DNA from: an uncultured Bacillota bacterium
GTDB lineage: Bacteria; Bacillota; Dehalobacteriia; UBA7702
Length of the DNA: 47,516 nucleotides
NCBI GenBank assembly: GCA_902796855.1
Contig: CADBQN010000044.1
Span: 1-47,516 of the forward strand
Reading direction: 5' to 3'
Part shown: positions 2,282 through 30,525 of the stretch, one piece after another
How positions within the stretch are numbered: position 1 is the first letter of the stretch
Layout: each line of letters opens with the position of its first letter
Notes under the pieces: generated by a model
What the model was told of the DNA's origin: nothing
Seen by the model: the letters and a program-made list of their open reading frames with translations, nothing else
Database searches by the model: none
Program-made: the position numbers and the translations under genes

Positions 2282-3311
2282 CCTCATCATCATCGGCGCG
2301 GGCCCCGGCGGCAGCGCCGCCGCCTTGGCCGCGGCGAAGCGCTGTTCCGTCGCCGTCATCGAGCGGCGGGAACGGTGCGGCGTCCCCGTTCAATGCGGCG
2401 AATACGCGCCGCTGCTCCTGAAAAGGCTGGCTCCTTGGGAAAGCCGCTTCGCCGCCCAGTATCTGGAAGGCTTCGACGGCTTCATCTGCGGCGAGAAGAG
2501 CTTTTCCCGGGACGCTCCCGGTTACGTCCTGCGCCGGTCGCTGTATGACGGCGCTCTGGCCGCCGCTGCGGCCGATGCCGGCGTCGATTTTTTCCAGCCG
2601 GCAAAGGCTGTGGACTGCACCGGCAACGGTGTCATCATCGACGTCGGCGGCACGCGGCGGGAGTTGAAATCGTCCTTCCTCATCGGCGCCGACGGTCCCC
2701 GCTCCCTGCTCCGTCAGTGGTTCGGCCTGCGGGAGCAGCCGCTGATGTCGGCGGTTCAGTGGTCGCTGACGCTGGCTTCGCCGCTGAAACGGGCGGAATT
2801 CTATTTTGATCCCCGTTTCCGCTGGGGCTACGGTTGGCTCTTCCCCAAAGGAGACACGGCCAATGTGGGCGTCGCCGCCCGGACGGAGCCGGGGGAGCGC
2901 CTGACGTCGCTGCTGAGCGCCTTTGCCCGCCGTCTCGTCGAGGCGGGGCGTCTGCGCCCCGGCCCGCCGCTGGCAAAGAGCGGCGGCTGGATCCCGGTGG
3001 GCGGCCCCGACGTGACGATGATTTTTCCCCGCTGTCTCTTCGTGGGCGACGCCGGTGGTTTCGCCCATCCTGTCAGCGGCAGCGGGATCGTGAACGCCGT
3101 TCTCACCGGCAGACTGGCCGGGGAGGCCGTCACGGCGGCGCTGAACGGTTCCGCGGAGGGGATCGCCGGTTACGACCGGGCGTGGCGGCGGCTCCTGGGC
3201 CGTCCTCTCGACCGGGCCGCGGAAAACCGCCGCCTGCTGCAGCTGGGCTGGACCGATGACGAGGAGCGGTTCCGCCGTTTGATCCTCCATTGCTGGGGAC
3301 CGTTTTCATAA
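2259..3311 (+). CDS. FAD-dependent geranylgeranyl-reductase-family oxidoreductase (LipT-like)
   Basis: A 350-residue flavoprotein. The N-terminal dinucleotide-binding motif is IIIGAGPGGSAAA; a middle strand reads GADGPRSLLRQWFG; WGYGWLFPKGDTANVGVAA is the geranylgeranyl-reductase signature; FVGDAGGFAHPVSGSGI is the C-terminal FAD motif. The chosen ATG (2259) has AGAAAGAAGGGG upstream and overlaps lplA by 23 bases. From established knowledge, LipT, a protein of this family, is encoded with LipS1/LipS2 and lipoate ligases in lipoate-assembly clusters and is thought to handle reduction steps. The neighbours here match that arrangement, so I infer a LipT-like role. A function in isoprenoid reduction is possible but unsupported by context. 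Confidence 0.82.
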   Translation: MRTKEKYDLIIIGAGPGGSAAALAAAKRCSVAVIERRERCGVPVQCGEYAPLLLKRLAPWESRFAAQYLEGFDGFICGEKSFSRDAPGYVLRRSLYDGALAAAAADAGVDFFQPAKAVDCTGNGVIIDVGGTRRELKSSFLIGADGPRSLLRQWFGLREQPLMSAVQWSLTLASPLKRAEFYFDPRFRWGYGWLFPKGDTANVGVAARTEPGERLTSLLSAFARRLVEAGRLRPGPPLAKSGGWIPVGGPDVTMIFPRCLFVGDAGGFAHPVSGSGIVNAVLTGRLAGEAVTAALNGSAEGIAGYDRAWRRLLGRPLDRAAENRRLLQLGWTDDEERFRRLILHCWGPFS

Positions 3312-3326
3312 AAAAGGAGAAATGAC

Positions 3327-4430
3327 ATGGGCAACATCGCCAGGGAAAGCCCTCTTTGGGTCAAGACCAGTCTGGCCGCGGCCATCGGCCTGGGGCTGGA
3401 ACCGGGCAGGTTCTATCGGAACGCCGAGGCGACCTGTCTGAATCTGCTGCTCTGCTACGAAAAGGGGTGCGCGGCGTCGTGCGCTTACTGCGGCCTGGGC
3501 CGGAACCGCGCGGCGGCCGGGGAAAAGACTTTTATCCGGGTAAAGTGGCCGCGCTACGCCTTGGAGGAGATCCTTCAAAAACTCAGGGAGCGCCCGCGTT
3601 CCTTTCGCCGGATCTGCGTCTCGATGATCACGCACCCCGCGGCGCTGAAGGACACCGTGACGATCATTTCCTTTCTGCGGCGCGTGACTGACCTTCCCAT
3701 CAGCGTGCTGGTCACGCCGACGGTAATGCGGGGCAGCGGCGGTTTCCTGACGCTGCTGGCCGCCGGCGCCGATCATGTCGGCGTCGCCGTCGACGCCGCC
3801 ACCGACACGCTCTTCGATGCCCTTCGGGGCAAAGGCGTAAAGGGACCCCATCGCTGGGAGCGGTACTGGCGCGCCGTCGCCGAGGCCGTGGAGGTCTTTG
3901 GCAGAGGACGCGTCGGCATCCACCTCATCGTGGGCCTTGGCGAGACCGAGGAAGACTGCGTCCGCGTCATGGACCGGGCCCGGGCCATGGGGGCGGTGAC
4001 CCATCTGTTTTCGTTCTATCCCGAAGCCGGCAGCCTGCTGGCGGATCGCCCCCAGCCTTCCGTCGAGCGGTACCGACGGGTGCAGATGGCGCGGTATCTG
4101 ATTGACAACGGCCACGCGCGGTACGGGGAGATGCGTTTTGACGACGGCGGGAGGATCCTCTCCTACGGCGTCGACCCGGAACCCTTTGTCCGTTCCGGGG
4201 AGCCCTTTATGACGTCGGGCTGCCCCGGGCGGGACGGCCGCGTCGCCTGCAACCGTCCCTTCGCCAACGAACGGGCCGGCAGGCCCTTCCGCAATTATCC
4301 CTTTGCGCCGGAGCCGGAGGACATCGAGACGATCAGGAGCCAGTTCAAACCGGGGGGAGAAAGCCGTGACGACGATGAAGAAAGCGAAAAAAAAGATCCG
4401 CTTCGCGGTACCTTCGGGGAAGGTCTATAA
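3327..4430 (+). CDS. Radical SAM protein, LipS1/LipS2-type lipoyl synthase component
   Basis: A 367-residue radical-SAM enzyme with the [4Fe-4S] motif C48-x3-C52-x2-C55 (GCAASCAYC), biotin-synthase-like in its TIM-barrel region. Two-component lipoyl synthases (LipS1/LipS2) replace LipA in many anaerobes and archaea and insert the two sulfurs of lipoate stepwise into an octanoyl-carrier. The adjacent second radical-SAM protein, two ligases, a lipoyl carrier and the LipT-like protein strongly suggest that role. I lean towards LipS1 for this gene but cannot fix S1 versus S2 without alignment. It starts at ATG 3327 after AAAAAGGAG, 15 bp after the preceding gene, and overlaps the next gene by 65 bases. 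Confidence 0.75.
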   Translation: MGNIARESPLWVKTSLAAAIGLGLEPGRFYRNAEATCLNLLLCYEKGCAASCAYCGLGRNRAAAGEKTFIRVKWPRYALEEILQKLRERPRSFRRICVSMITHPAALKDTVTIISFLRRVTDLPISVLVTPTVMRGSGGFLTLLAAGADHVGVAVDAATDTLFDALRGKGVKGPHRWERYWRAVAEAVEVFGRGRVGIHLIVGLGETEEDCVRVMDRARAMGAVTHLFSFYPEAGSLLADRPQPSVERYRRVQMARYLIDNGHARYGEMRFDDGGRILSYGVDPEPFVRSGEPFMTSGCPGRDGRVACNRPFANERAGRPFRNYPFAPEPEDIETIRSQFKPGGESRDDDEESEKKDPLRGTFGEGL

Positions 4431-5313
4431 AAACGAGTATTTCCAAAACCGGCCGCTGTCTTTTGTCAATGTCAGTGTCACCGGCGCGGCCTGCGCTCTT
4501 GACTGCAAACACTGCGGCGGTTCGCTGCTCCGGTCGATGGCGCCGGCGCCGCCGCCGAAGGAGTTTCCCGCAAGGGTGCGGCAATGGCGGGAGCGGGGCT
4601 GCGGCGGGTTCCTGCTCAGCGGCGGCGCGGACGAACGGGGCAGGGTCCCTCTGGGCCCCTATCTCAACGGAGCCGCCGCCGCGGTAAAGAGCGGCATGGA
4701 AGTGGTGGCCCACACCGGCGTCATCGGCGCGGCGGACGCCGCGGCGCTGAAAGCGAGCGGCGTCACCCGGGCGACGATGGACATCATCGGCGATACGGAT
4801 ACGGTCCGAAACGTCTGCGGCCTGCCGCTGACCGCCGCCGCTTACGAAGGCGTTTTGTCGGCCTGCCGCTGCGCGGGGCTGGCGGTCTCGCCGCACATCG
4901 TCATCGGCATCGACCACGGTGTTTTAAAGGGGGAGCGAAAAGCGCTGGAAGCGATTGTCGCTCACGAACCCCGCTCCGTTGTTTTGGTGGTGCTGAAACC
5001 GCTGAAGGGCACCGCCATGGCGGGAATTGACCCGCCGGAGCTGAAAGAAGTCCTGTCGTTTCTGGAGTTCGCCGCGTCTGCGGCGGGATCCGTTCCCCTG
5101 GCGCTGGGCTGCGCCTGCCCCGGCGGCGCCTACAGGCGGACGGTGGAAAGCGCCTGTCTCGACCTGGGCTTCCGGGCCATCGCCTACCCCGACCCCCACA
5201 CCGTCGCGCGGTGCGAAGCGGAGGGCTGGGATTACGGTTTTGAGGCGCGGTGCTGCTGCCTGACGGCGGCGGGGCCGCCGCCGCGTGAAAAAGAAAAGGA
5301 AGGTGCGAAATGA
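4366..5313 (+). CDS. Radical SAM protein, second LipS1/LipS2-type component
   Basis: A 315-residue radical-SAM protein with C43-x3-C47-x2-C50 (CALDCKHCGGSL). The preceding strand LSFVNVSVTG is typical of this subfamily. A GTG at 4366 is preferred because GGGGGGAGA lies six bases upstream; the ATG at 4375 is the alternative. It overlaps the upstream radical-SAM gene by 65 bases and the downstream gene by four, so the three are tightly coupled. Extra cysteines lie near the C-terminus (LGCACPGG and ARCCCLTA) and may bind the auxiliary cluster that donates sulfur in lipoyl synthases. I lean towards LipS2. The pairing with the preceding gene is the strongest evidence. Confidence 0.75.
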   Translation: MTTMKKAKKKIRFAVPSGKVYKNEYFQNRPLSFVNVSVTGAACALDCKHCGGSLLRSMAPAPPPKEFPARVRQWRERGCGGFLLSGGADERGRVPLGPYLNGAAAAVKSGMEVVAHTGVIGAADAAALKASGVTRATMDIIGDTDTVRNVCGLPLTAAAYEGVLSACRCAGLAVSPHIVIGIDHGVLKGERKALEAIVAHEPRSVVLVVLKPLKGTAMAGIDPPELKEVLSFLEFAASAAGSVPLALGCACPGGAYRRTVESACLDLGFRAIAYPDPHTVARCEAEGWDYGFEARCCCLTAAGPPPREKEKEGAK

Positions 5314-5987
5314 CTTTTTTGTATCACATCGATCACGATCTCGGCGCGCCGGAAGTGCTGAGAAGGATGGGACTGCCTGAAGATCACAAGTATAAGGCGA
5401 AAGTCGCGTCGCTGCTGGAAGAACTTCTGCCTCAGGTCCGGCCGAAAGTCTTTTACTGTCAAAAGAAAGTTGCTCTCAACGACGGCGAGACCGTCGTCAT
5501 CGACGGCGTCGATTTCCACAGCAGAACGCTGGCCAAAAGTTTGGACGGCGTGACGGAGGTCTATCCCTTCCTGGCCACTGCCGGGCGGGAGCTGATCCCC
5601 TATCTTCAGACTTCCCGGATGCTGGATAAAATGATCATCGACACGATCATGGAACTGATTTTGAACCGCTCGCTGATGGCCTTCACCGATAAGCTGGTGA
5701 ACGGCTTCCCCCACGAAAAACACCTGGTGCAGGTGAACCCCGGTTCTCTGGTGGGCTGGGACATTGAGGAACAGCAGCAGCTCTTTAAGCTGTACGGCGG
5801 CGCCAACGAGGCGATGAAGGTATACCTCACCGAAAAATCGGTGATGGATCCGGTGAAAAGTGTCTCGGGACTGATGTTCGCCGCCGACGGCGCTTTTGAG
5901 ACCTGCGAGCTCTGTCAGCGCGCGGACTGTCCCACCCGCCGGGCGGAATTCGACCCGGCGCTGTTCGAGAAGATGATCTCCACCTGA
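5310..5987 (+). CDS. Vitamin B12-dependent methionine synthase activation-domain protein (stand-alone)
   Basis: A 225-residue protein equivalent to the C-terminal AdoMet-binding reactivation domain of MetH. The diagnostic motif is NPGSLVGWDIEEQQQLFKLYGG (start near residue 147). In MetH this domain supports reductive methylation of inactive cob(II)alamin. The C-terminus carries CELCQRADC, a cysteine cluster often seen in stand-alone versions, which may bind a metal or Fe-S cluster. It overlaps the radical-SAM gene by ATGA, so it belongs to the lipoate operon, although its known chemistry is corrinoid maintenance. It could service the corrinoid proteins encoded downstream. A strong hairpin follows the stop codon. 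Confidence 0.82.
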   Translation: MTFLYHIDHDLGAPEVLRRMGLPEDHKYKAKVASLLEELLPQVRPKVFYCQKKVALNDGETVVIDGVDFHSRTLAKSLDGVTEVYPFLATAGRELIPYLQTSRMLDKMIIDTIMELILNRSLMAFTDKLVNGFPHEKHLVQVNPGSLVGWDIEEQQQLFKLYGGANEAMKVYLTEKSVMDPVKSVSGLMFAADGAFETCELCQRADCPTRRAEFDPALFEKMIST

Positions 5988-6213: not shown

Positions 6214-6302
6214 TTTAATATAAATAGAGATATAGATTATAAAAAAATCGCATCATGTGACTTTGGAAGAGGAAGCCGAGCCATCGGTTTGAGGTGAGAG
6301 AA

Positions 6303-8273
6303 ATGCGAAAAACAGATGAGCGGAAACGGGGGCTGCATCAGGCATGGGAGGATTTTATCAACCGCGGCGTCATCGACGAGGACGTCGTTCGCCCGGAAAT
6401 CGCCCGATCCTGGCGGCGCTGCCGCAAGCTGGACGTCGACCCCATGGTGGGTCAGGTCATGGCGGCGCTGTCCCCCGCCGAACTGGAACTGACAAAGAAG
6501 AAAAGGGAACTGCTGCTGAATACGGCCCGTCCCTATGTAAAGCTCCTCAGCGATTACGCCGTGAAGAGCGGTTTTACGGTGTTCCTGGCCGACCCCAAGG
6601 GAACGGTGCTGATTTTAGACGGCGACCGCGCGGAAATCGAGCGTCAGAGCCGGGTCAACCTGCGGGAAGGGGCCATCTGGTCGGAGCGCTACGCCGGAAC
6701 CAACGCCGTGGGCACCTCCATTTTTACGAAGAGCCCTCTCCAAGTCGTCGGCGAGGAGCATTACTGTGCCTTTCAGCACCGCATCACCTGCTCCGGCGCG
6801 CCGATCTGCGGCCCCGACGGCGCTCTCGTCGGGATTTTAAGCATGTCCGGCAATTCGGAGCACGTCAACATCCACACGTTGGGAATGGTGGTGGCATGCG
6901 CTCAGGCCATTGAGAATCAGATCATGCTGATTGAGACCATGGAAGAACTGCGGAACCGCAACCTGCTGATGAACGCCACCTTGGAAAGCGTGCCCAACGC
7001 GCTGATCGCCATCGACAAAGGCGGCCGCGTCACTCAGGTGAACAGCCTCGGCCTCAAAATGCTGAACCGCGGCGTCGAGGACGTCATCGGCGAAAAGCTC
7101 CCCCGGCTCATTCCCGGCAAGCCCGATCTCCTCAGCCTGATCGAGTCCGGCTGCGCCGACGGCGTCGAGATCCTGCTGGAAAACATCGATCCCGTGGTGC
7201 GCTGCAACATCAGCAGCAACGAGATCTACGATCACCGCGGGCACTACCACGGGGCGGTGCTCCTGTTTAACAAACGGGAGCAGGTGGTAAAGCTGGTCAA
7301 TCAGATCACCGGTGCCCACTCCAAATTCGGGTTCGACGCCCTGGTGGGCGAGGAGCCCTCCTATCTGGAGGCCAAGCGCGTCGCCAAAGAGGTGTCAAAG
7401 ACCAACGCCTCGGTGCTCCTTTTGGGCGAAAGCGGCACCGGCAAGGAAATGTTCGCCCAGGCCATCCACGAGCAGAGCGCCAGGGAGGGCCCGTTCATCG
7501 CCATCAACTGCGCCGCGATTCCCCGCAGCCTGATGGAGAGCGAGCTCTTCGGCTATGAGGCCTCGGCCTTCACCGGCGCCAGCCGCAACGGCCGCCCGGG
7601 CAAGTTCGAACTGGCCCACAAGGGCACGCTGCTCCTGGACGAAATCGGCGATATGCCCCTTGATCTGCAGGCGGCCATTCTCCGCGTGCTCCAGGAGCGG
7701 GAAGTCGTCCGTATCGGCGGTCACAAGTCCCTCCCCATCGACGTCCGGATCATCGCTTCCACCAACTGCGACCTGCGGCGGAAGATCCGGGAAAAGACCT
7801 TCCGGGAGGATCTCTATTACCGCATCAACGTCGTGACGATCAAGATATCGCCGCTGCGCCAGCGCAAAAGCGATATCACGCTGCTGTCCTCGGCGCTGCT
7901 CCACGGCATCAACCGGCGCATGAACAAGGCGGTGGTGGGCATCACCGACGAGGCCCTCGCCATCCTGCGGGATCACGACTGGCCCGGCAACGTGCGGGAG
8001 CTGGAAAACGTCCTCGAACGCGGCGTCGTGCTGGCCCGGGACAATTACATCGGCGTGGAAGACCTCCCCGATTACATCGTCAGCAAAAGGGAAGAGCCCC
8101 GGGAGGAACCGGCGGAACCCCCCTCGGACGACGACGAAAAGGACATCATCGAGGACGCCGTAAAGAAAAACCGCACGATGGCCCTGGCCGCCAAATCGTT
8201 GGGGATGAGCCGGAGCACCCTCTACCGCAAGCTGAAAAAGTACGGTCAGAGCCGAACCGCGCTTTTGAAATAA
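6303..8273 (+). CDS. Sigma-54-dependent activator, AcoR type (GAF-PAS-AAA+-Fis)
   Basis: A 656-residue enhancer-binding protein. The N-terminus has the AcoR-family SWRRC motif (EIARSWRRC), then a GAF domain with YAGTNAVGTS, a PAS domain (about 215-325), a sigma-54 AAA+ domain with Walker A GESGTGKE and Walker B LLLDEIGD, and a Fis-type helix-turn-helix at the C-terminus (LAAKSLGMSRSTLYRKL). The sigma-54 contact loop reads SAFTGA instead of GAFTGA. I chose ATG 6303 because GAGGTGAG lies just upstream; the GTG at 6294 would overlap that site. A consensus sigma-54 promoter follows the gene, so it most likely activates the molybdenum-enzyme/corrinoid operon in response to a small molecule bound by the GAF or PAS domain. 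Confidence 0.9.
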   Translation: MRKTDERKRGLHQAWEDFINRGVIDEDVVRPEIARSWRRCRKLDVDPMVGQVMAALSPAELELTKKKRELLLNTARPYVKLLSDYAVKSGFTVFLADPKGTVLILDGDRAEIERQSRVNLREGAIWSERYAGTNAVGTSIFTKSPLQVVGEEHYCAFQHRITCSGAPICGPDGALVGILSMSGNSEHVNIHTLGMVVACAQAIENQIMLIETMEELRNRNLLMNATLESVPNALIAIDKGGRVTQVNSLGLKMLNRGVEDVIGEKLPRLIPGKPDLLSLIESGCADGVEILLENIDPVVRCNISSNEIYDHRGHYHGAVLLFNKREQVVKLVNQITGAHSKFGFDALVGEEPSYLEAKRVAKEVSKTNASVLLLGESGTGKEMFAQAIHEQSAREGPFIAINCAAIPRSLMESELFGYEASAFTGASRNGRPGKFELAHKGTLLLDEIGDMPLDLQAAILRVLQEREVVRIGGHKSLPIDVRIIASTNCDLRRKIREKTFREDLYYRINVVTIKISPLRQRKSDITLLSSALLHGINRRMNKAVVGITDEALAILRDHDWPGNVRELENVLERGVVLARDNYIGVEDLPDYIVSKREEPREEPAEPPSDDDEKDIIEDAVKKNRTMALAAKSLGMSRSTLYRKLKKYGQSRTALLK

Positions 8274-8515: not shown

Positions 8516-8531
8516 TGGCATCGGAATTGCA
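8516..8531 (+). promoter_or_regulatory. Sigma-54 (-24/-12) promoter of the molybdenum/corrinoid operon
   Basis: TGGCATCGGAATTGCA has GG and GC separated by exactly 10 bases and matches the consensus TGGCAY-N5-TTGCW. It lies 45 bp before the ATG of the molybdopterin oxidoreductase and downstream of a sigma-54 activator gene. The rest of the 8274-8575 gap holds the hairpin above and no gene. Confidence 0.85.
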
Positions 8532-8575: not shown

Positions 8576-10801
8576 ATGGCAAAAAAAACGCCCGCTTTTC
8601 AGCGGCACTGTGAGGATCTGAACAAATACGCCGTCGCGAAGAACGTTCCCGTTTGGGTTGGCGGCGAAAAAATCGTCGCGGATCGGGTCGTGAAGACGGC
8701 GTGTCCCCACAACTGTTACGATACCTGCGGCATGCTGGTTTACGTGAAAGACGAAAAGGTTATAAAAATTGAGGGTGATCCGGAGCATCCAATCACACGC
8801 GGACATCTCTGTCTCAAAGGTTATTCCAACGTTCAAAAAATAAACAGTCCAGATAGAGTCAAGTATCCTATGCTCCGTACCGGGGAACGAGGGGAGGGTA
8901 AATTCCGCCGCATCAGCTGGGACGAAGCTTTCGACTACATGGTGAAAAAAATCACCGCCATGCGGAGCAAGTACGGCAGCGAGTCGCTGGTGGAATACTG
9001 TTATTCCGGCAATCGGGAGCACATGGCCAAAGCCGTGAGCGGCCGGTTTCTGAACCTTTTCGGCGCGACCAAGCTCGTGGGCAGTTTCTGCCTGCTTTCC
9101 GGGGCGGCGGGTTCCTATCAGACCGTCGGCTATCAGCACACGATGTCGCCGGAAGTGTGGAGCGAGAACTGCGAGGCTGTCATGCTGGTCGGGCGGAATC
9201 CGTCCTTCACGAATCCGCACATCTATCCGTTCCTCTATCGGGCGAAGGAGCGCGGCGCTCTGCTCATCGTTTCCGATCCTTACGTTACCGCCGTGGCCTC
9301 CAAGGCCGATCTGCATCTGCAGCCCCGGCCCGGCACCGACGGCGCCATGGCTCTCGGCATGATGCACTGGATCATCAAAAACGATCTCCACAATAAAGAG
9401 TTCATCGCCAAATACACCCACGGTTTTGAGGAGCTGACCAAGCTGCTGGAAAAATGGACGCCGGAATATACCGAGGAGATCACCGAGATCCCCAAGGAAA
9501 AACTGATTCGCGCGGCGGAGATCTTCGCCACCAAGGAAACGCATCTGGAATGCGGCTACGGTCACCAGCGCTACAGCAACGGCCATCAGGTGCAGCGCGC
9601 CATGGCCTGTCTGGCGGCGATCTGCGGCCACATCGGCAAAGCCTCCGCCAATTACAATTTCATCGACTCCATGGGCTTCCCCGGCATCGAGGGCTTCGCC
9701 AAGACGGCGGCGGTCACGTCCCCCGCCGGCGCGGAGATCAAGCCCACCAGAATGATCAACATCGCCACCTTCGCCAAAGCGGTGCACGAGGCGAAGGACC
9801 CACCCATTAAAGGCGTTATTTGTTATCGGGGCGGCCTTGTTTCCCAGCAGCCCTGGGTTGACTATACCATCGCGGCATTGAAAAAATTGGATCTGTTCGT
9901 TGTCATTGAGCAGTTCATGACCGATGACACCGACTGGGCGGATCTCGTCCTGCCCGGCTGTCATTTTCTGGAACAATACGGCCTGCATACCTCCTATTGG
10001 CATCATTTTAATCAGATTTTGGTGCCGGTCTGTCAACCTTACTACGAAGCCGTGCCCGACCTTGAGATTTTTGAGGAGCTGGGACGGCGGCTGGGATACG
10101 CGGAATATTTCCCCAGGGAACGCACGGGTTTGGATTACATTCGGATGCTCATCGGCGACAACACCGATGTGGACGCCGCCACTTCTCCCAACGGCCCTGT
10201 CCGTCTCGGCGAGGAATGGTGCCCCCGCGTTCCTTACGAAAAGAAGGATTTCAACACGCCCACCGGCAAGGTGGAGCTGTATTCCACCATGATGGAAGAG
10301 CGCGGGAAGAAGTTTAAAGGGGATTACGAGCCCCTGCCGCACTTCATTGAGCCCGATGAAAGTCCCTGCCGGACGCCGGAACTGTTTAAGAAATACCCGC
10401 TGACGTGCATTTCTCAGCATCCGGCTTTCAGAACTCATTCCCAGTTCTATAATCTTCCCTGGATCCAGGAGATCGAGGGGCCGCCCAAGATTTTTATCAA
10501 TGAGGCCGACGCCGCCGCCCGCGGCATCAAAGACGGCGATAAAGTCCGCGTGTTCAACGACCGCGGCGAGCTGACGAACATCCTGGCCCGGGTCTCCATC
10601 CGCGTCCGGCGCAACGTCGCCGAGCTGAGCAGCGGCATGTGGGTGAAATTGGGCGGCAGCGTCAACAAGCTGACGTCTCTGAGCATCGGCGGTCCCCGGG
10701 ATGTCCTCTCGGAGGACGGGATCATGTATGAGTACCATCCGCTGTACGACGGCAACACCACGGCCTATTTCAATTCCCTGGTGGAAGTCGAGAAAATGTG
10801 A
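8576..10801 (+). CDS. Molybdopterin (bis-PGD) oxidoreductase, DMSO-reductase family
   Basis: A 741-residue catalytic subunit. A [4Fe-4S] motif near the N-terminus is C43-x3-C47-x3-C51-x27-C79, followed by the usual molybdopterin-oxidoreductase domains and a C-terminal molydopterin dinucleotide-binding domain (about 610-740). The likely metal ligand is C172 in GSFCLLSGAAGS, but this needs structural alignment. There is no twin-arginine signal, so the enzyme should be cytoplasmic. With the next gene it forms a two-subunit soluble complex without a membrane anchor, resembling in layout the transhydroxylase type more than respiratory reductases. The substrate cannot be predicted. It is the first gene after the sigma-54 promoter and heads the operon that continues into corrinoid methyl transfer. 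Confidence 0.88.
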   Translation: MAKKTPAFQRHCEDLNKYAVAKNVPVWVGGEKIVADRVVKTACPHNCYDTCGMLVYVKDEKVIKIEGDPEHPITRGHLCLKGYSNVQKINSPDRVKYPMLRTGERGEGKFRRISWDEAFDYMVKKITAMRSKYGSESLVEYCYSGNREHMAKAVSGRFLNLFGATKLVGSFCLLSGAAGSYQTVGYQHTMSPEVWSENCEAVMLVGRNPSFTNPHIYPFLYRAKERGALLIVSDPYVTAVASKADLHLQPRPGTDGAMALGMMHWIIKNDLHNKEFIAKYTHGFEELTKLLEKWTPEYTEEITEIPKEKLIRAAEIFATKETHLECGYGHQRYSNGHQVQRAMACLAAICGHIGKASANYNFIDSMGFPGIEGFAKTAAVTSPAGAEIKPTRMINIATFAKAVHEAKDPPIKGVICYRGGLVSQQPWVDYTIAALKKLDLFVVIEQFMTDDTDWADLVLPGCHFLEQYGLHTSYWHHFNQILVPVCQPYYEAVPDLEIFEELGRRLGYAEYFPRERTGLDYIRMLIGDNTDVDAATSPNGPVRLGEEWCPRVPYEKKDFNTPTGKVELYSTMMEERGKKFKGDYEPLPHFIEPDESPCRTPELFKKYPLTCISQHPAFRTHSQFYNLPWIQEIEGPPKIFINEADAAARGIKDGDKVRVFNDRGELTNILARVSIRVRRNVAELSSGMWVKLGGSVNKLTSLSIGGPRDVLSEDGIMYEYHPLYDGNTTAYFNSLVEVEKM

Positions 10802-10816
10802 GACGAGGTGGAGATC

Positions 10817-11344
10817 ATGAAAAACGCCCAGATTACCTTATATATCGACACAAAGCGCTGCATGAACTGCCGCGCCTGTGAAATCGCCTGCAAGCTTGAG
10901 CACGATCTGCCCGTCGGCCCCCGTTATACGATGGTGACGGAAACGGATCTGATGGTGGAGGGCGAGCCGAAATCCATGTTTTTGCCCACGCCCTGTCTCC
11001 ACTGCGGCGACGCCCCCTGTCTTTCGGCCTGTCCCGCCGGCGCTATCAGCAAGCGGAGCGACGGCATCGTTTTGGTCAACAAGGATAAATGCATCGGCTG
11101 TCACGAGTGTCTGTGGGCCTGCCCCTTCGGTATTCCCCAGTTCGGCAGCGACGGCAAAATGGAAAAATGCACCCTCTGCGCCCACCGCGTCGATGAGGGC
11201 GACCGCCCGGCCTGTGCCAGGGCCTGTCCCGCCGAGGCGATCTTAGTGGGTACCACCGCCGAGATTTCCGAAACGCTGCGCCGCCGCTACGCCGGCACCG
11301 CTTTTGCAAAGACGCTTCTCGGCGGCGCCGCCCAGGGACGCTGA
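10817..11344 (+). CDS. 4Fe-4S ferredoxin-type electron-transfer subunit (NrfC/DmsB-like)
   Basis: A 175-residue polyferredoxin. Four cysteine groups are visible: CMNCRACEIAC, CLHCGDAPCLSAC, CIGCHECLWAC and CTLCAHRV followed by CARAC, enough for four [4Fe-4S] clusters as in DmsB/NrfC-type beta subunits. The ATG at 10817 follows GAGGTGGAG; a GTG at 10808 is in frame but would bury that site. It starts 15 bp after the molybdenum subunit and should carry electrons to or from it. No membrane anchor subunit is present, so the complex probably exchanges electrons with a soluble carrier. Confidence 0.88.
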   Translation: MKNAQITLYIDTKRCMNCRACEIACKLEHDLPVGPRYTMVTETDLMVEGEPKSMFLPTPCLHCGDAPCLSACPAGAISKRSDGIVLVNKDKCIGCHECLWACPFGIPQFGSDGKMEKCTLCAHRVDEGDRPACARACPAEAILVGTTAEISETLRRRYAGTAFAKTLLGGAAQGR

Positions 11345-11474: not shown

Positions 11475-11822
11475 ATGACCAAAGCGCAAGAAATCTTAAA
11501 GGAATTCCAGGAAGGCTTGGGAAAGGCGCAAAATGAGATGCCCAAAACGATACAGGCCTACTTGGACCTGGAAAAATACGCCTGCGCCAACTACAACACC
11601 TTTGACGCGAAAACAAAGGAGCTTTTTATGCTGGCCCAGGGCGTGAGGACCCCGTGTAAGTACTGTATTGTCATCCACACTTACAACGCCATCAAAGAAG
11701 GCGCCACCAAAGAAGAGATCTACGAAGCGGCCAGCACGGCGATTCCCTTCGGCGGAGCCAAGACCTTCGCCTACGCCTGCACCTATCTGACCGACGCCGT
11801 GGACAGCTTCTGGGTGGACTGA
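11475..11822 (+). CDS. Carboxymuconolactone decarboxylase / AhpD-like protein
   Basis: A 115-residue alpha-helical protein of the CMD/AhpD family. The redox motif CKYCIVIHTYNAIKEGAT has the CxxC plus downstream histidine of AhpD-like peroxidase-reducing members. AAGGAGG lies just before the ATG. It sits between the molybdenum enzyme genes and the corrinoid genes on the same strand, with 130-bp gaps on each side in which I saw no clear terminator. It may protect the oxygen-sensitive enzymes or act in substrate processing; neither can be shown from sequence. The family call is secure. Confidence 0.85.
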   Translation: MTKAQEILKEFQEGLGKAQNEMPKTIQAYLDLEKYACANYNTFDAKTKELFMLAQGVRTPCKYCIVIHTYNAIKEGATKEEIYEAASTAIPFGGAKTFAYACTYLTDAVDSFWVD

Positions 11823-11955: not shown

Positions 11956-12591
11956 ATGGCATTTGAAAAAGTAAGAGATGCTATGTTGGCAACAGACAGC
12001 GAATTAGTGGTGAAAGAAATCAACGCGGAACTGGCGAAAGGCGCGGATCCGAAGGCTATCTTCGACGTGCTCACCGACGCCATGGGAGAAATCGGCGATC
12101 TTTTCAGTGAAATGAAAATGTTCCTGCCCGAAGTGATGCTGGCCACCGAAGCCATGAACGAGGCTTTCGCCATTTTAGGGGCGGAAATGCAGAAACAGGA
12201 TCAGGCCATTGAAAACCTGGGCACCGTTGTGATCGGCACCGTCAAAGGCGACGTTCACACCGTCGGCAAGGATATGGTCACCGGTACGCTGAACACCGCC
12301 GGTTTCAAAGTCTTTGATATCGGCATCGATTCCTCTCCCCAGGATTTCGTTGAAATCGCTGAAAGAGAAGGCGCCGACATCATCGGTCTTTCGGCCCTGA
12401 TGACCGCGACCATGCCCAGTCAGAAGGACGTCATTGAGTTCCTGGAATCCAAGGGCATCAGAGAAAAATATAAAGTCCTCGTCGGCGGCGGCGTCGTGAC
12501 CCAGGAATGGGCCGACGAAATCGGCGCGGATGGTTACAGCAAAGACGCCGTAGGCGCCGTGGATGTCGCCAAGAGACTGGTAGGCAGATAA
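11956..12591 (+). CDS. Corrinoid (B12-binding) methyltransferase carrier protein, MtmC/MttC type
   Basis: A 211-residue protein with an N-terminal four-helix cap (about 1-85) and a Rossmann-like B12-binding domain. The motif GTVKGDVHTVGKD supplies the lower-axial histidine H101, followed by GLSALMTATM and VLVGGGVV, all typical of methylamine and methanol corrinoid proteins. AAGGAGG lies 9 bases before the ATG. It precedes the MtmB-like methyltransferase by 63 bp and would accept the methyl group from its substrate, then pass it to the methyl-H4folate transferase encoded downstream. Confidence 0.92.
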   Translation: MAFEKVRDAMLATDSELVVKEINAELAKGADPKAIFDVLTDAMGEIGDLFSEMKMFLPEVMLATEAMNEAFAILGAEMQKQDQAIENLGTVVIGTVKGDVHTVGKDMVTGTLNTAGFKVFDIGIDSSPQDFVEIAEREGADIIGLSALMTATMPSQKDVIEFLESKGIREKYKVLVGGGVVTQEWADEIGADGYSKDAVGAVDVAKRLVGR

Positions 12592-12654
12592 GAGGAAACG
12601 CCCGATACGGATCCCGCGAAACCATTCTTTATTTTAGATTAGGAGGTATACAAA

Positions 12655-14049
12655 GTGAGAGGTAAAATTTTTACATATTGGAATCGTTCCGAATCCGGCC
12701 CCATCATGACAGAAAAAGATTTCGACCTGAAAGTCTACTGGCCGGCCGTGAAAAAAGTGGTAAAAAAATATAATATTGAGTACAATCCCGATGAAGTGGT
12801 TCCGCAGTCGGTCGATCAGATTAACGACATCTATAAAGCCGCCCGGGAACTGTTCCTGGAAGTCGGCGTGTTCAACGTCACCACCGGCCGCCGGATCACC
12901 TGGACGGAAAAGGAACTGGACGACACGATGAAGAAATTCCCGTCTGAAATGACGGTGGGTGAAGGCCGCGACGCCTGCCACTTCGATCATCGTGTACTGA
13001 ACGATCCCCGTCCGGCGAACTGCCTCGGCCGCGTCCTCGGCCCCCAGGATCCGGCCCTGCTCGACCGCGTGTTCTACGCCTACGCTTCGGAACACCGCAT
13101 CGACCACTGCTGCTTCCAGGGGATCATCCCCTACATCAACGGCGCGAAAGTCAGACCCTGGAGCCCGCATGAAATCTCCGCCGAGCTGAAACGCGTCTCC
13201 GAAATGGATCACGCCCGCCGCCGGGCCGGACGTCCCGGCATGTCCGACTGGTCCAGCGCCCCCGTATCGCTCCAGGCCGCCATGGCCGCGATGAACTCCG
13301 ATTCCGGCATGCGCAAAGGCGATGTCCGCCACATTTACATCATGCCGCATCTGAAAACCAGCTACGAACAGTTCACCAGAACGATGGCCACCTTCGCTTT
13401 CGGTCACCATCAATGGGGCATCGGCCAGGCTTATGTGGGCGGTCTTTCCGGCTCCCCCAACATGGCCGCCGTCGTCTCCTGCGCTGAGCTCTTCGCCTAC
13501 TGCATGCTCTACAATCCTTCCGCTCTGGGTCTGTGGACCGCCGACGGCATGTACTTTGCCACCACCAGCCGCACGGCTCTGTGGGTGTGCTTCCATGCCG
13601 GCGCCGCCTGGGTCAACAACACCAATACGTTCAGCTTAGACGGCGCTCCCTACGGCGTTGTCGCCTCGGGCCCCTGCACCGAAACGTATTTCTGGGAACA
13701 TGCCGCCGCCGCCATCGGCGACGCCGTGACCGGAATGAACAGCGGCGGCGGTACCGGCTGGCAGAGCGCTCTGACCATGGGCGCCACCCCGATCGGTGCC
13801 CGTTTCGCCAGCGAAGTCTGCGACGCTGTCTGCGAAGCTCAGATCGGCTGGAAGGAAGCGAACCGTCTGGTCAATTACTGCCTGGACAAGTATATGGACC
13901 GCATGGACGCTCATACGCTGCATGAAGGCGGGAAACGCTTTGATGAATGCTATGATGTGGAAACCTGCGAACCGACTCAGGAATATCTCGATCTGTATAA
14001 CAAGGTCAAGAACGAACTCCGCGAACAGGGCCTGAAAAACCTGGGATAA
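12655..14049 (+). CDS. MtmB-family (monomethylamine) methyltransferase homologue lacking pyrrolysine
   Basis: A 464-residue protein, close to the 458 residues of archaeal MtmB. From memory of the Methanosarcina sequence, shared blocks are GxGRDA (about 102-107), AGRPGM (191-196), SGPCTE and the C-terminal FDECYDVETCEPTQEYL. In MtmB the residue three after AGRPGM is pyrrolysine (amber codon); here it is W199, codon TGG at 13249-13251, and there is no internal amber. The start is GTG 12655, eight bases after AGGAGG. It lies between its corrinoid protein and the folate methyltransferase, so a substrate:corrinoid methyltransferase role is well supported. The substrate is unknown; without pyrrolysine a plain methylamine is doubtful, and a quaternary amine or other methyl donor is possible. 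Confidence 0.85.
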   Translation: MRGKIFTYWNRSESGPIMTEKDFDLKVYWPAVKKVVKKYNIEYNPDEVVPQSVDQINDIYKAARELFLEVGVFNVTTGRRITWTEKELDDTMKKFPSEMTVGEGRDACHFDHRVLNDPRPANCLGRVLGPQDPALLDRVFYAYASEHRIDHCCFQGIIPYINGAKVRPWSPHEISAELKRVSEMDHARRRAGRPGMSDWSSAPVSLQAAMAAMNSDSGMRKGDVRHIYIMPHLKTSYEQFTRTMATFAFGHHQWGIGQAYVGGLSGSPNMAAVVSCAELFAYCMLYNPSALGLWTADGMYFATTSRTALWVCFHAGAAWVNNTNTFSLDGAPYGVVASGPCTETYFWEHAAAAIGDAVTGMNSGGGTGWQSALTMGATPIGARFASEVCDAVCEAQIGWKEANRLVNYCLDKYMDRMDAHTLHEGGKRFDECYDVETCEPTQEYLDLYNKVKNELREQGLKNLG

Positions 14050-14167
14050 GATGACACTAAAAAGGGTTGCCGCGTTCAAGCAATTCGCGATGAGGGTCAA
14101 CCGGCAGCGATGCAGGTGAAAAACGCCGCAGCATACGAATTTGAAAATCCGAAAGGAGAAAATTTTC

Positions 14168-15016
14168 ATGGAAACAATCGTAAAGAGTAAAACAAAAACT
14201 GTCGTCATTGGCCCCGAGCACCCCTTTACCATCATTGGGGAACGCATCAACCCCACGGGACGAAAAGCCTTCGCCGCCGAACTGAAAGAGGGCAATCTGG
14301 AACGCGTCGCTTACGACGCGAAAAAACAGGTGGAAGCCGGCGCTCACATCCTCGATGTGAACGTCGGAGCCGCCGGTGTCGACGAAAAGAAACTGATGAA
14401 GGAAGCCTGTCAACTGCTGGATGAGATCACCGACGTTCCCCTCTGCTTCGATTCCTCCAAAAGCGACGTGCTGGAAACGGCGCTGAAGTTCTATGAGGGG
14501 AAAGCGCTGGTCAATTCCGTCACCGGCGAGGAAGAACGGATGAACGCCGTGCTGCCGCTGGTGAAAGAATACGGCGCCGCCGTTATTGTTCTGCCCTTCG
14601 GCGAGGGAGGCATCCCCGACAGCGCCGACGAGCGGTTCCGCATCGCCGCCGATATCGTGGAACGCGGCGAAAAACTCGGCATCCCCCGCGAGGATATGGT
14701 GATCGACTGTCTCACGATGACGCTGAGCTCCAACGCCGCCGCGGGGAAGATTACCCTGGATACGATGAAGCGCATCCGCGATGAGCTGGGCTGCAATATG
14801 TCGCTGGGTGTGAGCAACATCTCCTTCGGCCTGCCGGACCGTGAGACCATCAATTCCGTATTCATGGTCGCGGCCATTGAAAACGGCCTGACCGCGGCGA
14901 TTATCGATCCCACGAAACCGGAAATGAAAAAGGCCGTTCTGATCCAGGATATGCTCGCCGGCAAGGATAAACACTGCATGACCTACATCAGAGAAAGCAG
15001 AAAAAACCTCAGCTAA
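14168..15016 (+). CDS. Methyltetrahydrofolate:corrinoid methyltransferase (MtvA/MtgA/AcsE-like)
   Basis: A 282-residue pterin-binding (DHPS-like) TIM-barrel enzyme. Motifs are GERINPTGRKAF near the N-terminus, AGAHILDVNVGAAGVDE, a CFDSSKSDVLE strand and the VSNISFGLPDR segment, all characteristic of the MetH/AcsE/MtvA pterin-binding family. It would move the methyl group from the methylated corrinoid protein to tetrahydrofolate. The chosen ATG (14168) follows AAAGGAG by nine bases; an in-frame TTG at 14141 has no such site. Its place after the MtmB-like gene fits bacterial demethylation, where folate replaces coenzyme M as the final methyl acceptor. Confidence 0.92.
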   Translation: METIVKSKTKTVVIGPEHPFTIIGERINPTGRKAFAAELKEGNLERVAYDAKKQVEAGAHILDVNVGAAGVDEKKLMKEACQLLDEITDVPLCFDSSKSDVLETALKFYEGKALVNSVTGEEERMNAVLPLVKEYGAAVIVLPFGEGGIPDSADERFRIAADIVERGEKLGIPREDMVIDCLTMTLSSNAAAGKITLDTMKRIRDELGCNMSLGVSNISFGLPDRETINSVFMVAAIENGLTAAIIDPTKPEMKKAVLIQDMLAGKDKHCMTYIRESRKNLS

Positions 15017-15064
15017 AAAAGCGCGCTCCCGCTTAGGCGGCGCGAAACGAAGGAGGTCTTTGCG

Positions 15065-16909
15065 ATGCGTATGATCATTCTCGACGAAGAGCAGCGTAAG
15101 GAATACGAAATGCCGGAAGGCCTGAGCGTCATTGAATGTCTGCTCCGGTATGACCTGCCGGTACGGAACGACTGCGCCGCCAAGGGGAACTGCGGCAAAT
15201 GCCGCGTCCGCACCATCGCGGGGAACCTCTCTCCGGAAACCGAAATCGAGCGGGAGCACCTTTCCAAAGAAGAATTAGACCAAGGCTGGTTCCTGGCGTG
15301 CCAGAGGGCGGCAAAAAGCGATGTCACCCTCAGGCTCAGCTATGGCCGGGACGCCGGTTACCGCAAGACGATGCTGGCGGAAAAGGAAGACGCCCTCGCG
15401 GGGGATCCCGTGGTGCAAAGGGGGGTCTTTTCCATGTCCGAACCGGATCTCAGCGATCAGGTGCCCGATTGGGAGCGGCTGCTGGCCGCCGTCGGCGGTT
15501 CCGTCAGCCGGGAAGCGATTCCCCGCGGCCTTTTGAGCGCTCTCCCCGAGCTGCTGCGAAAGGAAGATTTCACCGTCACCGTGACGACGGTAGCGAACCG
15601 TCTGGCGGCGGTGACGCCCGGAAAATCGGAGCGACGTCCCTTCGGCGCCGTCTGCGACATCGGGACGACGACCCTTGCCGTCTATCTCGTGGATCTGGCC
15701 ACGGGCATCACCCGCGGCGCCGCGGCGAAGACCAATCCCCAGGTCAGCTTTGGTACCGACGTGATTTCCCGCATCAACAGCGTTTCCGAGGACTTTTCCG
15801 CCCTCGAAAAGATGCACGGCGACATCGTCGCCGCCATCGCCGAGCTCATGGCGGGCCTCCTTGAGGAGAATGACCTTTCGGCGGACGACCTCTTCGCCAT
15901 GACCGTCGTGGGCAACACGACGATGAGCCACCTCTTCGCCAAAGCGGACCCGCGCCGTCTGGCGACGGCGCCCTTTGTTTTCTGCTTTAAACAGGGGCTC
16001 ACCTTTCGCGGCAGGGATTTCCCCCTGCCGATGCACCCCGAAGGCGAGGTCTTTCTCCTGCCCAATGTCGCCGGTTATGTCGGTTCCGATACCGTCGGTG
16101 TCATGCTCTCCGTCGATATCCTGAACCGGAGCGGCTGCGCCATCGCGGTGGATCTGGGCACCAACGGCGAAATCGTCCTGTCCGGCAACGGCCGCGTACT
16201 GGCCTGTTCCACCGCGGCGGGGCCCGCTTTTGAGGGCGCCAAAATCAAAAACGGTATGCGGGCGGGAGCCGGTGCCATCGAGAAAGTCCGGATCAGCGAC
16301 GGCGAAATCGAGCTGAAGATCATCGATGAAGCTCCGCCGGCGGGCATCTGCGGCTCCGGCCTGATCGATGCCGCGGCGCAGATGCTGAAAGCCGGTCTGA
16401 TCGACGCTTCCGGCTGCCTCCTGCCGCCGGATACCGACTTCCCCCTGGCGGAAAATCTCCGCCGCCGCCTGCGCAAAGGCGATCAGGGCCTCGATGAGTT
16501 CGTTTTAGCGGCCAAAGGCGAGTACGGCAACGACGCGGACGTCGTCATCAGCCAGAAGGATATTCGCGAGCTGCAGCTGGGCAAAGGCGCCGTCGCCGCC
16601 GGCATCACCGTTCTGCTGCGGGAGATGAACATCACCGCCGAAGAAGTCGACCGTCTGTTCCTCGCCGGGGCGTTCGGCAACTACATGGACGTCCGCCACG
16701 CCGTTATGCTGGGGCTGTTCCCCGGCATCAGCGTGGAAAAGGTCGAGGCCGTCGGCAACGCCGCCGCCTACGGCGGCCGTTTGGCGCTGCTCTCCCGGGA
16801 AAAACGCGCCGCCGCCGAAGAACTTGCCGAAAAGACGGAGCATATCGAGCTCTCTACCAGCGCGGCGTTTTACGATATTTTCATGCGGGAGATGAATTTC
16901 CCCGGCTGA
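15065..16909 (+). CDS. Corrinoid reductive activase (RamA/RACE type, 2Fe-2S plus ASKHA domain)
   Basis: A 614-residue activator. The N-terminal plant-type 2Fe-2S domain has C37-x5-C43-x2-C46 and C79. The rest is the DUF4445/ASKHA ATPase region with DIGTTTLAVYLVD and VDLGTNGEI phosphate-binding motifs, and NVAGYVGSDTVG between them. Such proteins use ATP to drive reduction of inactive cob(II)alamin to cob(I)alamin in corrinoid proteins. GGAGG lies eight bases before the ATG. It is the last gene of the operon and the only such activase in the window, so it may also serve the MttB and MtbB systems. A terminator hairpin follows. Confidence 0.92.
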   Translation: MRMIILDEEQRKEYEMPEGLSVIECLLRYDLPVRNDCAAKGNCGKCRVRTIAGNLSPETEIEREHLSKEELDQGWFLACQRAAKSDVTLRLSYGRDAGYRKTMLAEKEDALAGDPVVQRGVFSMSEPDLSDQVPDWERLLAAVGGSVSREAIPRGLLSALPELLRKEDFTVTVTTVANRLAAVTPGKSERRPFGAVCDIGTTTLAVYLVDLATGITRGAAAKTNPQVSFGTDVISRINSVSEDFSALEKMHGDIVAAIAELMAGLLEENDLSADDLFAMTVVGNTTMSHLFAKADPRRLATAPFVFCFKQGLTFRGRDFPLPMHPEGEVFLLPNVAGYVGSDTVGVMLSVDILNRSGCAIAVDLGTNGEIVLSGNGRVLACSTAAGPAFEGAKIKNGMRAGAGAIEKVRISDGEIELKIIDEAPPAGICGSGLIDAAAQMLKAGLIDASGCLLPPDTDFPLAENLRRRLRKGDQGLDEFVLAAKGEYGNDADVVISQKDIRELQLGKGAVAAGITVLLREMNITAEEVDRLFLAGAFGNYMDVRHAVMLGLFPGISVEKVEAVGNAAAYGGRLALLSREKRAAAEELAEKTEHIELSTSAAFYDIFMREMNFPG

Positions 16910-22647: not shown

Positions 22648-24099
22648 TTATTTCGCGTTGACGCGGGCCTGAGCTCCGGCGACGATTTCATCCAGCTGCT
22701 TCAAAATATCGTCGGCGAGGGGGTGCTGCGGGCCGGCGTCAATGATTTCTTTCGCTCTGGCACGGAGCCGCTGACCGAGATCGGGCATATCCGCCGTCTG
22801 CATGTCCTCAAAGGTCATGCCCTTAATGCAGGCGGATTTCCACTGTTTCCTCGCTTCCGCGGCTGTCTGGGCTTCCATCAGGAAGTTGCCGCCGGGGCCG
22901 ACGCCGTTGATGATTTCCTCGGCCAGGGTGTATTCATCTACGGCCTGACCGGAAACGATGGTCTTGATAAAGCCGATGGCTTCGTCGGCGAAAATGAGTT
23001 CCTCAATACTGCTGGATTTGCCGCATTCCATGGCGCCGTTGGTAAAGGCCATGTTGACACCGCTGAGCATACTGGTGTAGATGGCCGCCGTCGTTTCAAA
23101 GGCGGCTTCGGCGTCGAATCTGCCGTTGGCCGTGGCGCCCAGATTGGAGCAGCAGGGCAGTCCGAGGTAACGGAAGACGTCGGCGGCGCCGGAGAGACCG
23201 ATGAGGTATTCGGGACGGGAATAGGTGACATGAACGGTGGTCATGTCGACGTTATCCGACAGCACGCAGCCGATCCAGGGCGCGCCGGGCTGCGTCAGCT
23301 GAGAGACGAGAAGGGCCATCAGGTTGTCGCAGAGCGCCGTAACGACGGCGCCGGCGGCGGTGATGGGCGCGGCGAGGCCCAGGGAAGCGCCGGGCATGTA
23401 GAGCACCGGCAGACGCTTTTTCGCCATATACATGATCTGGGCGAGGCCGTCGTCGGTGTGCTGCAGCGGCGGTACGGGGCAGATTTCCGTCATGATGAAG
23501 GGATTCACCGCCAGTTTTTCCGGGCTGCCGGCGATGATTTCCGCCATTTTGACCATGTCTTTGAGGTTTTCCAGGCTCAGAGCGAAATTCATCACCGGCT
23601 TTTTGGTCAGCGGGAGCATTGTACGCAGTTCATGGATATCGGAAATCCTGGCGTCGCAGTCGTCGATGAGCACGAGGGTGCTGGCCCAGGCCATGTCGGG
23701 GAGGGCGTCGCAGAGAAGAGCGTAGTTGACGGCGTCTTCGGTGGTGGCCCGGCGTTTCGTGTCTGTCTCACCGTCCCAGACGCAGGTATCGGAGTTCGTC
23801 GGTCCGAAATTGGGAACGTGGGCGGCTAAGGTATAGGCCGGTTCGCCGAGACGGTCGTACATCGTGATGGAGCTCGGCGCGGCGTCCACGGCCCAGCGCA
23901 GCAGCCCTTCGGGGACACGGACGCGTTCACCGTCCACGTAACAGCCGGCTTTTTTCAAAAGCTCCCTGGCTTCGGCGTTGCGGATTTCGGCGCCGGTTTT
24001 CGCCAGAACACGGCAGACCGTTCCGAAGATTGCCGCGCACTGATCCTCACTCCACATCTGATACTGTACCGATTGTTGATAGGTGGCATTCATTTTCAT
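22648..24099 (-). CDS. MttB-family (trimethylamine-type) methyltransferase, non-pyrrolysine
   Basis: A 483-residue member of the MttB superfamily (COG5598). Matching features are ETGAEIRNAEARELLKKAG-like opening (CRVLAKTGAEIRN), PNFGPTNSDTCVWDGET, and a conserved TIM-barrel core ending in NGVGPGGNFL. No in-frame amber is present, so it belongs to the non-pyrrolysine branch whose characterised members demethylate quaternary amines such as glycine betaine, proline betaine, carnitine or butyrobetaine. The substrate here is not predictable. No corrinoid protein lies next to it, so it must use one encoded elsewhere, perhaps at 11956 or 28419. A divergent sigma-54 activator at 24241 probably controls it. 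Confidence 0.88.
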   Translation of the reverse strand: MKMNATYQQSVQYQMWSEDQCAAIFGTVCRVLAKTGAEIRNAEARELLKKAGCYVDGERVRVPEGLLRWAVDAAPSSITMYDRLGEPAYTLAAHVPNFGPTNSDTCVWDGETDTKRRATTEDAVNYALLCDALPDMAWASTLVLIDDCDARISDIHELRTMLPLTKKPVMNFALSLENLKDMVKMAEIIAGSPEKLAVNPFIMTEICPVPPLQHTDDGLAQIMYMAKKRLPVLYMPGASLGLAAPITAAGAVVTALCDNLMALLVSQLTQPGAPWIGCVLSDNVDMTTVHVTYSRPEYLIGLSGAADVFRYLGLPCCSNLGATANGRFDAEAAFETTAAIYTSMLSGVNMAFTNGAMECGKSSSIEELIFADEAIGFIKTIVSGQAVDEYTLAEEIINGVGPGGNFLMEAQTAAEARKQWKSACIKGMTFEDMQTADMPDLGQRLRARAKEIIDAGPQHPLADDILKQLDEIVAGAQARVNAK

Positions 24100-29136: not shown

Positions 29137-30525
29137 TCAAAGCAGACCGGTTTTCTTTTTGAATTGAGTGACGCTGGGAATTTCAATGCCGAGGACTTTT
29201 TCGATGTTGAATTTGGCTTCCATCCCGTTGCTGGCGCCTTTTCTGTCAAGAACCGTACCGATGTCAAGAGATTCCCTGATCTCTTTCATCGCGAAGGTAT
29301 CGGACAGATCGAGAACGGAGCAATGGAGCTTGTCCGCGACGTATTCTTTCGCGGCGCTGAGTCTCATTCCCTTCATGACCATACGGCTGACCAGGTCTCC
29401 GGCCGTCCGAATCCCACCCATTCCGGAAGAGAGCTCATGTACCGCCGCCATGCCGTAAGCATCGCCGTGGCCAATCTACAACCCGTCGACTTTGGCGATT
29501 TCCAGCAAGGCTTTGGAAACGCGGGAAGTCACGTCGGTGGGCGTGGTGTTGGTGTTGGTCACGCCGCCGACGCCCATGCCGGCGTCAACGACAACGGGGA
29601 TTTCCGCCGCGGCGACACAGGCCTTGGCGTAAGTGAGAGCTCTCGCTAAGTTCCAGGCAAAGGTCTGGTTGCTGTTGGTATTGACGACACAGCCAAAGAT
29701 GTCCACCCCGGCTTTTTCCGCCATTTTTACCTGCTGATGGGGGTAAGCTCCGGCAATACGTTCGCCCTCAAACTCGAGCTGACCGTGCATGCCGAGGTTG
29801 AACTCGCCGGCCATGCCCATTTCGATCCCGATATTGGGAAATCTTTTTTTCAGTTCTTTCGCGGCCATCAGAGCGGCGAGAACGTCCGCGTCGCCGGAAG
29901 CGCCGACGGTATCGAACTGAATGCCGCAGGCGCCGGCTTCCGCCATTTGGCCGGTGATGAAGACCATGTCGCTGACGGCGTGTTCAACGGCTTCTTCCTG
30001 GGCTTCGCGGGCTTCGGCGATTTTGCCCATGGGCAGCAGTTCCGACCAGTTGTCAATAGGGCCGTCGGGCTTGGTGTACTGACCAAGATTGGGCATGGCG
30101 CCGTAAAAGATCGGCATCACGCAGTTGTTCTGGGCCAGTTCCATCGTCATGGCTTCTTCCTGAACAAAGTTTTTGATGCTCTTGTAGCTGTAGTCGGTGG
30201 TGCAGAGTTCCATTGTGTCGGAACAGAGTATTCGCTCATGAATCATCAGCGTCGCGAGGCGGTCCACCGGGATCCCTGCCCGCACCGGCAGTTTTAAAGT
30301 GCCGGCGTCAAAGGTCATGATCCCTTCATGCCCTCTTTTCACGCTGACATTTTTCTGAGGCATGGTCAGTATCTCGACGAGATAATCGACCTCTTCTTTT
30401 GCCAGTTCGGGGATTTGCCCCCTGTCCGCCGCGTCGGCGGTGCCGTCTTCCACGTCATAGCGAATGTCTTCTTTCGACATCATGACCGCGGCGCCGTCAC
30501 CCAAACGTGTGAAAAATTCACTCAT
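29137..30525 (-). CDS. mtbB: Dimethylamine methyltransferase MtbB with in-frame amber (pyrrolysine)
   Basis: Read through one TAG, the gene encodes 462 residues, matching archaeal MtbB (467). The first 349 residues end ALLEIAKVDGL; the TAG at 29478-29476 is codon 350; the frame then continues IGHGDAYGMAAVHELSSG without a gap and ends in TGA. In Methanosarcina MtbB the pyrrolysine (residue 356) sits in the same context. Both halves are typical MtbB, so a sequencing error or decay is unlikely. The enzyme transfers a methyl group from dimethylamine to its corrinoid protein. AAGGAGG precedes the ATG, and a consensus sigma-54 promoter lies 43 bp upstream. Function requires pylS, pylT and pylBCD elsewhere in the genome. 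An automated caller would split it into a 349-residue and a 104-residue gene. Confidence 0.95.
29476..29478 (-). other. In-frame amber codon read as pyrrolysine
   Basis: Plus-strand CTA, minus-strand TAG, at codon 350 of mtbB. The frame is intact on both sides and the flanking residues match the pyrrolysine site of known MtbB proteins. Confidence 0.93.

Follow-up and report, generated by a model that had tools for sequence, protein, structure and literature searches.

The gene at 12655–14049 of the window, the whole 47,516-nucleotide stretch of DNA analyzed here, probably encodes the substrate-specific methyltransferase (MT1) in a corrinoid-dependent demethylation system of three components. 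This protein is most likely free of pyrrolysine (Pyl) by ancestry and active on a substrate other than monomethylamine. The new part of the system is the molybdoenzyme linked to it in the operon; a non-Pyl MtmB itself has already been published. The features are listed in Table 1.

Table 1. Features of the window considered in this analysis
Feature	Position	Strand	Remarks
Sigma-54 activator (GAF-PAS-AAA+-Fis), probable operon regulator	6294..8273	+	PF00158, PF01590, PF00989, PF02954
Predicted sigma-54 (-24/-12) promoter, TGGCATCGGAATTGCA	8516..8531	+	Upstream of operon, 3' of activator gene
mopA, molybdopterin oxidoreductase, DMSO reductase superfamily	8576..10801	+	PF00384, PF04879, PF01568
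FeS electron-transfer subunit (DmsB-like)	10808..11344	+	PF13247; TIGR02951, 140 bits
AhpD/carboxymuconolactone-decarboxylase-like protein, CxxC	11475..11822	+	PF02627; TIGR00778 over cut-off
Corrinoid protein (MtbC/MtgC-like), B12-binding, DxHxxG = DVHTVG	11956..12591	+	PF02310, PF02607
mtmB-like gene, predicted non-Pyl MtmB-family methyltransferase (substrate:corrinoid, MT1)	12655..14049	+	464 aa
W199 codon, TGG	13249..13251	+	Aligns to Pyl202 column of MtmB
Methyltetrahydrofolate:corrinoid methyltransferase (MeTr, MT2)	14168..15016	+	PF00809; NF005719, 290.6 bits, cut-off 259
RACo-type ATP-dependent corrinoid reductive activator	15065..16909	+	PF14574, PF17651, PF17650, PF00111; N-terminal 2Fe-2S
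Pyl-type MtbB	29152..30519	-	One in-frame TAG

Family and fold of the protein

The open reading frame starts with GTG, downstream of an AGGAGG ribosome site. The sole Pfam-A match of its product is PF05369 (MtmB), which covers residues 5–460 and scores 223.5 bits, above its cut-off of 25, and a phmmer search of the PDB returned MtmB structures only, with 1L2Q (MtmB1 from Methanosarcina barkeri) aligned to residues 6–460 (E = 2.5e-36). The AlphaFold model, computed with 55 relatives as input, has a pLDDT of 94.6. In Foldseek, it matches the MtmB TIM-barrel of 1NTH and 1L2Q with TM scores of 0.90–0.92 (0.90 to 1NTH), as compared to just ~0.5 for MttB and MtgB. The protein is an MtmB family member over its full length, as the first-pass annotation had proposed, and the structural comparison with MtmB that it suggested agrees with the alignment. 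A plasmid search returned no homologue of the protein. CdmB (chloromethane) was discarded as a relative, since it belongs to the unrelated UroD superfamily.

The pyrrolysine site is rebuilt

In the phmmer alignment with 1L2Q, AGRPGM-S-D-W lies opposite AGRPGM-G-V-Pyl, without a gap from the motif to W199, and both the alignment of 94 sequences and the AlphaFold model place W199 at the Pyl202 column. The earlier assignment of W199 to the Pyl position thus holds, and the gene has TGG, not an in-frame amber codon, at the place of MtmB position 202. Our sample of 94 distinct MtmB family members came from class, phylum and genome-wide scans of a limited genome set with few archaea. Within it, the column holds Val in 22 sequences, Pyl and Gly in 15 each, Met in 10, Thr in 6, Cys and Ile in 5 each, Lys and Tyr in 4 each, His and Phe in 3 each, and Trp and Leu in 1 each. 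The closest homologue (77% identity), from a genome of the same class (G006), has Cys (TGC) in this column. The homologues from rumen Selenomonas and Schwartzia (46–47%) have Gly, and other members of the clade have Gly (GGC or GGA) or Lys.

The surroundings of the site are replaced as well. Around Pyl202 of MtmB, residues E229, E235, E259, Q333 and Y335 are invariant in all 16 Pyl rows of the alignment, and in the published MtmB structures E229, E259 and Q333 serve Pyl chemistry. Their counterparts in the window protein are H226 for E229, H232 for E235, I256 for E259, P332 for Q333 and G334 for Y335. Judging from these aligned residues, the entire Pyl site is rebuilt, which backs a different substrate better than W199 alone does. 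The first-pass suggestion that catalysis and substrate should differ from those of Pyl-MtmB is supported.

The protein is Pyl-free by ancestry

The tree of the MtmB family with and without Pyl that the first-pass annotation had proposed was built with the Pyl column removed, and is unrooted. A single branch (SH-aLRT 100) sets all 15 Pyl proteins off from the rest, and the window protein lies within a non-Pyl clade of 14 members (SH-aLRT 99). Forcing it into the Pyl group was rejected by the AU test, both for the protein alone (p = 2.8e-6) and together with its 77% homologue (p = 9.7e-11), and its identity to the Pyl-MtmBs is ~29%. The protein is thus Pyl-free by ancestry and not by recent mutation, and W199 is a late change within an old non-Pyl lineage. 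In the sampled tree, the family is mostly non-Pyl, with Pyl confined to one side of a single branch, which bears on the question of Pyl gain versus loss in MtmB.

A sister clade has Lys at the Pyl position (L034:9989-12931, L129:1934-7829 and L130:1730-4355). Genes next to these loci encode permeases for xanthine/uracil and for cytosine/purine, an adenosine-deaminase-family protein and Bmp (PnrA-like) lipoproteins, a hint that the Lys-type proteins may use N-methylated purines or nucleosides.

The source genome itself uses Pyl. It encodes PylS, six TAG-bearing MtbB genes (including that of the window) and 18 MttB genes, ten of which carry TAG; a Pyl-MtmB was not found in it. The statement in the first-pass annotation that the window contains a true Pyl MtbB and that Pyl is available in the cell was correct. 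The window also encodes a non-Pyl MttB-family protein at 22648–24099 on the minus strand; a gene for a sigma-54 activator lies at 24241 on the opposite strand.

Organization of the operon

The genes lie on one strand in the order mopA, FeS subunit, AhpD-like protein, corrinoid protein, MtmB, MeTr and RACo-type activator. Only 6 bp separate mopA from the FeS gene, and the genes past it are spaced by 48–133 bp. In a strict sigma-54 search, the predicted promoter was the sole match in the window, against 0.13 expected from shuffles. Three relatives (L076, L077 and L033) have similar sites close to their clusters, and homologues of the sigma-54 activator occur in the clusters of four relatives. 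The AhpD-like protein was unmatched in the relatives' clusters searched.

Where the flanking sequence is long enough, nearly all relatives have a corrinoid-protein gene close to the mtmB-like one, and the corrinoid protein of the window, whose best NCBIfam match is MtbC (NF041607, 190 bits, below the cut-off of 350), is the predicted cognate partner of the methyltransferase. For MeTr, ATG 14168 has a ribosome site and fits the start of the homologues, and the mechanical open reading frame begins at 14141 (TTG). MeTr homologues (60–64%) are present in the clusters of two relatives, and the G006 cluster encodes a 50% homologue of the RACo-type activator. The operon thus encodes a corrinoid protein, a second methyltransferase and a reductive activator, the genes of a three-component system, although adjacency is no proof of co-function. 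The source genome contains an acetyl-CoA synthase domain. At the Selenomonas and Schwartzia rumen loci, UroD-type methyltransferases occupy the place of MeTr in the stretch examined, suggesting that the methyl acceptor may differ inside the clade.

Upstream of the operon, the region 968–5987 of the window encodes a lipoate ligase and two candidate radical SAM proteins, one of them LipS2-like but below its cut-off and the other a weak match, as well as a small protein weakly matching the methionine synthase activation domain. In four relatives, a conserved membrane protein of ~350 aa, ending in GQKTPGTWDDV, is encoded downstream of MtmB (L076:16343-17416, L077:11814, L033:11615 and L074:11594); it has no match in Pfam, NCBIfam or the source genome, and its model has a pLDDT of 45.

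The linked molybdoenzyme

No TAT signal was seen in mopA. Its best PDB match is PsrA/thiosulfate reductase (2VPW), and mopA and the FeS subunit give their top scores to DMSO reductase models. By alignment to PsrA and FdhF, C172 of mopA occupies the metal-ligand column. Formate dehydrogenases follow the Sec/Cys metal ligand with His. As mopA reads SFC(172)LLSG, without this His, it was rejected as a formate dehydrogenase; its counterpart in the L074 cluster has TGA followed by VLSG.

Among 43 genomes of the class, the single close mopA homologue (73%) belongs to G006, which is also the sole other genome of the class with this type of MtmB. It lies 7 kb downstream of the gene for the 77% homologue, and the same cluster contains the FeS subunit (57%). 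The other mopA matches in these genomes are at most 41% identical, and the long ones at most 33%. The L074 cluster, labelled Nitrospira sp., with an MtmB of 40% identity, also contains mopA (53%) and FeS (50%) homologues, and the mopA–MtmB linkage therefore recurs between highly divergent clusters. Not every member of the clade shows it, as the L033, L034 and rumen clusters are without it in the stretches read. In the L074 gene (12818-15091), an in-frame TGA (L074:13379-13381) lies exactly where the window mopA has Cys172, with a predicted hairpin after it, so that the L074 homologue is likely an unannotated selenocysteine enzyme. The MtmB/mopA cluster of G006 also encodes two glycyl radical enzymes with activases after MtmB (L110:2549-5961 and 12238-15646), the first of which is unmatched in the source genome.

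We know of no such molybdoenzyme pairing for any MtmB, MtbB or MttB system, and found no published counterpart of an operon with a Cys/Sec molybdoenzyme. Tentatively, this cytoplasmic Cys/Sec-ligated molybdoenzyme and the non-Pyl MtmB may handle a single methylated compound one after the other, which would constitute a distinct anaerobic pathway of reduction or oxidation plus corrinoid demethylation.

Proposed mechanism and substrate

In the mechanism that we propose, a methylated compound other than monomethylamine would be held in the barrel at the site where MtmB has Pyl, in a pocket predicted to be lined by W199 and the aromatic residues Y300, W254 and W347, the last three of which are conserved in most of the clade. 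Given the absence of Pyl, the substrate itself should already be a good methyl donor, such as a quaternary ammonium, a similar onium or another activated methyl compound; a quaternary ammonium or similar compound is quite possibly, though not more likely than not, the class concerned. If the protein works as MtqB, MtgB and MtmB do, it should offer the methyl group to the corrinoid protein at 11956, whose Co(I) would attack it directly. MeTr (14168) would then hand the methyl group to tetrahydrofolate and thereby into the Wood-Ljungdahl pathway, while the RACo-type protein (15065) would re-reduce inactive Co(II). The activator at 6294 would induce the operon via sigma-54, and the co-transcribed mopA and FeS subunit would act either before demethylation, to ready the substrate, or after it, on the product. 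Overall, tetrahydrofolate most likely receives its methyl group from a methylated compound that is not monomethylamine.

The kinship of mopA to polysulfide/thiosulfate reductase, its closest solved relative, and its best scores to DMSO reductase models also fit a methylated sulfur substrate (sulfonium, sulfide or sulfoxide), which the Trp-type MtmB would demethylate while the molybdoenzyme would reduce an oxidized form or handle the sulfur product. A four-domain rhodanese protein, encoded by the first gene past the sigma-54 site in the L077 cluster, points in the same direction. However, mopA scores far below every NCBIfam cut-off, the rhodanese occurs in one relative only, and the sole characterized non-Pyl MtmB uses quaternary amines (PMC13044021); a sulfur compound is thus rather unlikely.

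More improbable still is a Pyl-free monomethylamine demethylase standing in for the Pyl-MtmB that is missing from the genome. The lack of a Pyl-MtmB beside so many TAG-bearing MtbB and MttB genes, and the low activity of MtqB with monomethylamine (PMC13044021), are compatible with such a role, but the residues around Pyl are also lost, and monomethylamine does not support growth of DCMF ('Ca. Formimonas warabiya'), a member of the same class (PMC9768040). Moreover, G006 has two Pyl-MtmBs besides the 77% homologue, which is therefore no substitute there.

That the gene is a true Pyl-MtmB whose amber codon became TGG by recent mutation or sequencing error, as the single-base distance of TGG from TAG might suggest and in line with the amber loss assumed in the first-pass annotation, is refuted by the separate non-Pyl clade with its AU rejection, the identity of only ~29% to Pyl-MtmBs, the vanished Pyl-contact residues and the Cys (TGC) of the nearest homologue, while the nearness to TAG is uninformative because TGG is also one base from TGC.

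For the preferred reading, a Pyl-free demethylase of a compound other than monomethylamine, the compact regulated operon, the 77% homologue in a completely assembled genome and the conserved molybdoenzyme open a way to the substrate through induction experiments and enzyme assays.

Comparison with known systems

The window protein resembles MtmB of M. barkeri (1L2Q/1NTH) in fold, length, the AGRPGM motif and the pairing with a corrinoid protein. It differs from MtmB in having W199 for Pyl202, in the replacement of E229, E259, Q333 and Y335, and in its identity of only 24–29% and separate clade.

The first-pass statement that no non-Pyl MtmB has been characterized is outdated. In 2026, tetramethylammonium and choline were shown to be substrates of MtqB from Methanococcoides methylutens Q3c (PMC13044021), and a 2022 paper on 'Ca. 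Formimonas warabiya' had already dealt with non-Pyl MtmBs (PMC9768040). Such proteins are numerous, as a published tree contains more than 1000 members, Pyl ones included, and a substrate is established for one only. By its description, MtqB is likewise a non-Pyl MtmB from an organism that uses Pyl, and adjoins a corrinoid protein annotated as MtbC; the window gene also has an MtbC-type corrinoid protein beside it, albeit with a match below cut-off. Unlike MtqB, the window system is bacterial, would feed tetrahydrofolate instead of coenzyme M, judging by its genes, and includes a molybdoenzyme in its operon.

The non-Pyl MtmB-superfamily proteins of DCMF and Dehalobacterium formicoaceticum (PMC9768040) belong to the same family and class, but the protein from DCMF treated in that paper shares just ~30% identity with its family. 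We found no operon or Pyl-site analysis of the clade of the window protein in the literature, and papers on D. formicoaceticum EZ94 and the class Dehalobacteriia do not discuss the gene. MtgB and other non-Pyl MttB proteins, Pyl-free quaternary amine demethylases with a corrinoid protein and a methyl-tetrahydrofolate methyltransferase, offer a model of how the system may work, although they belong to a different family with a TM score of ~0.5 to the window protein.
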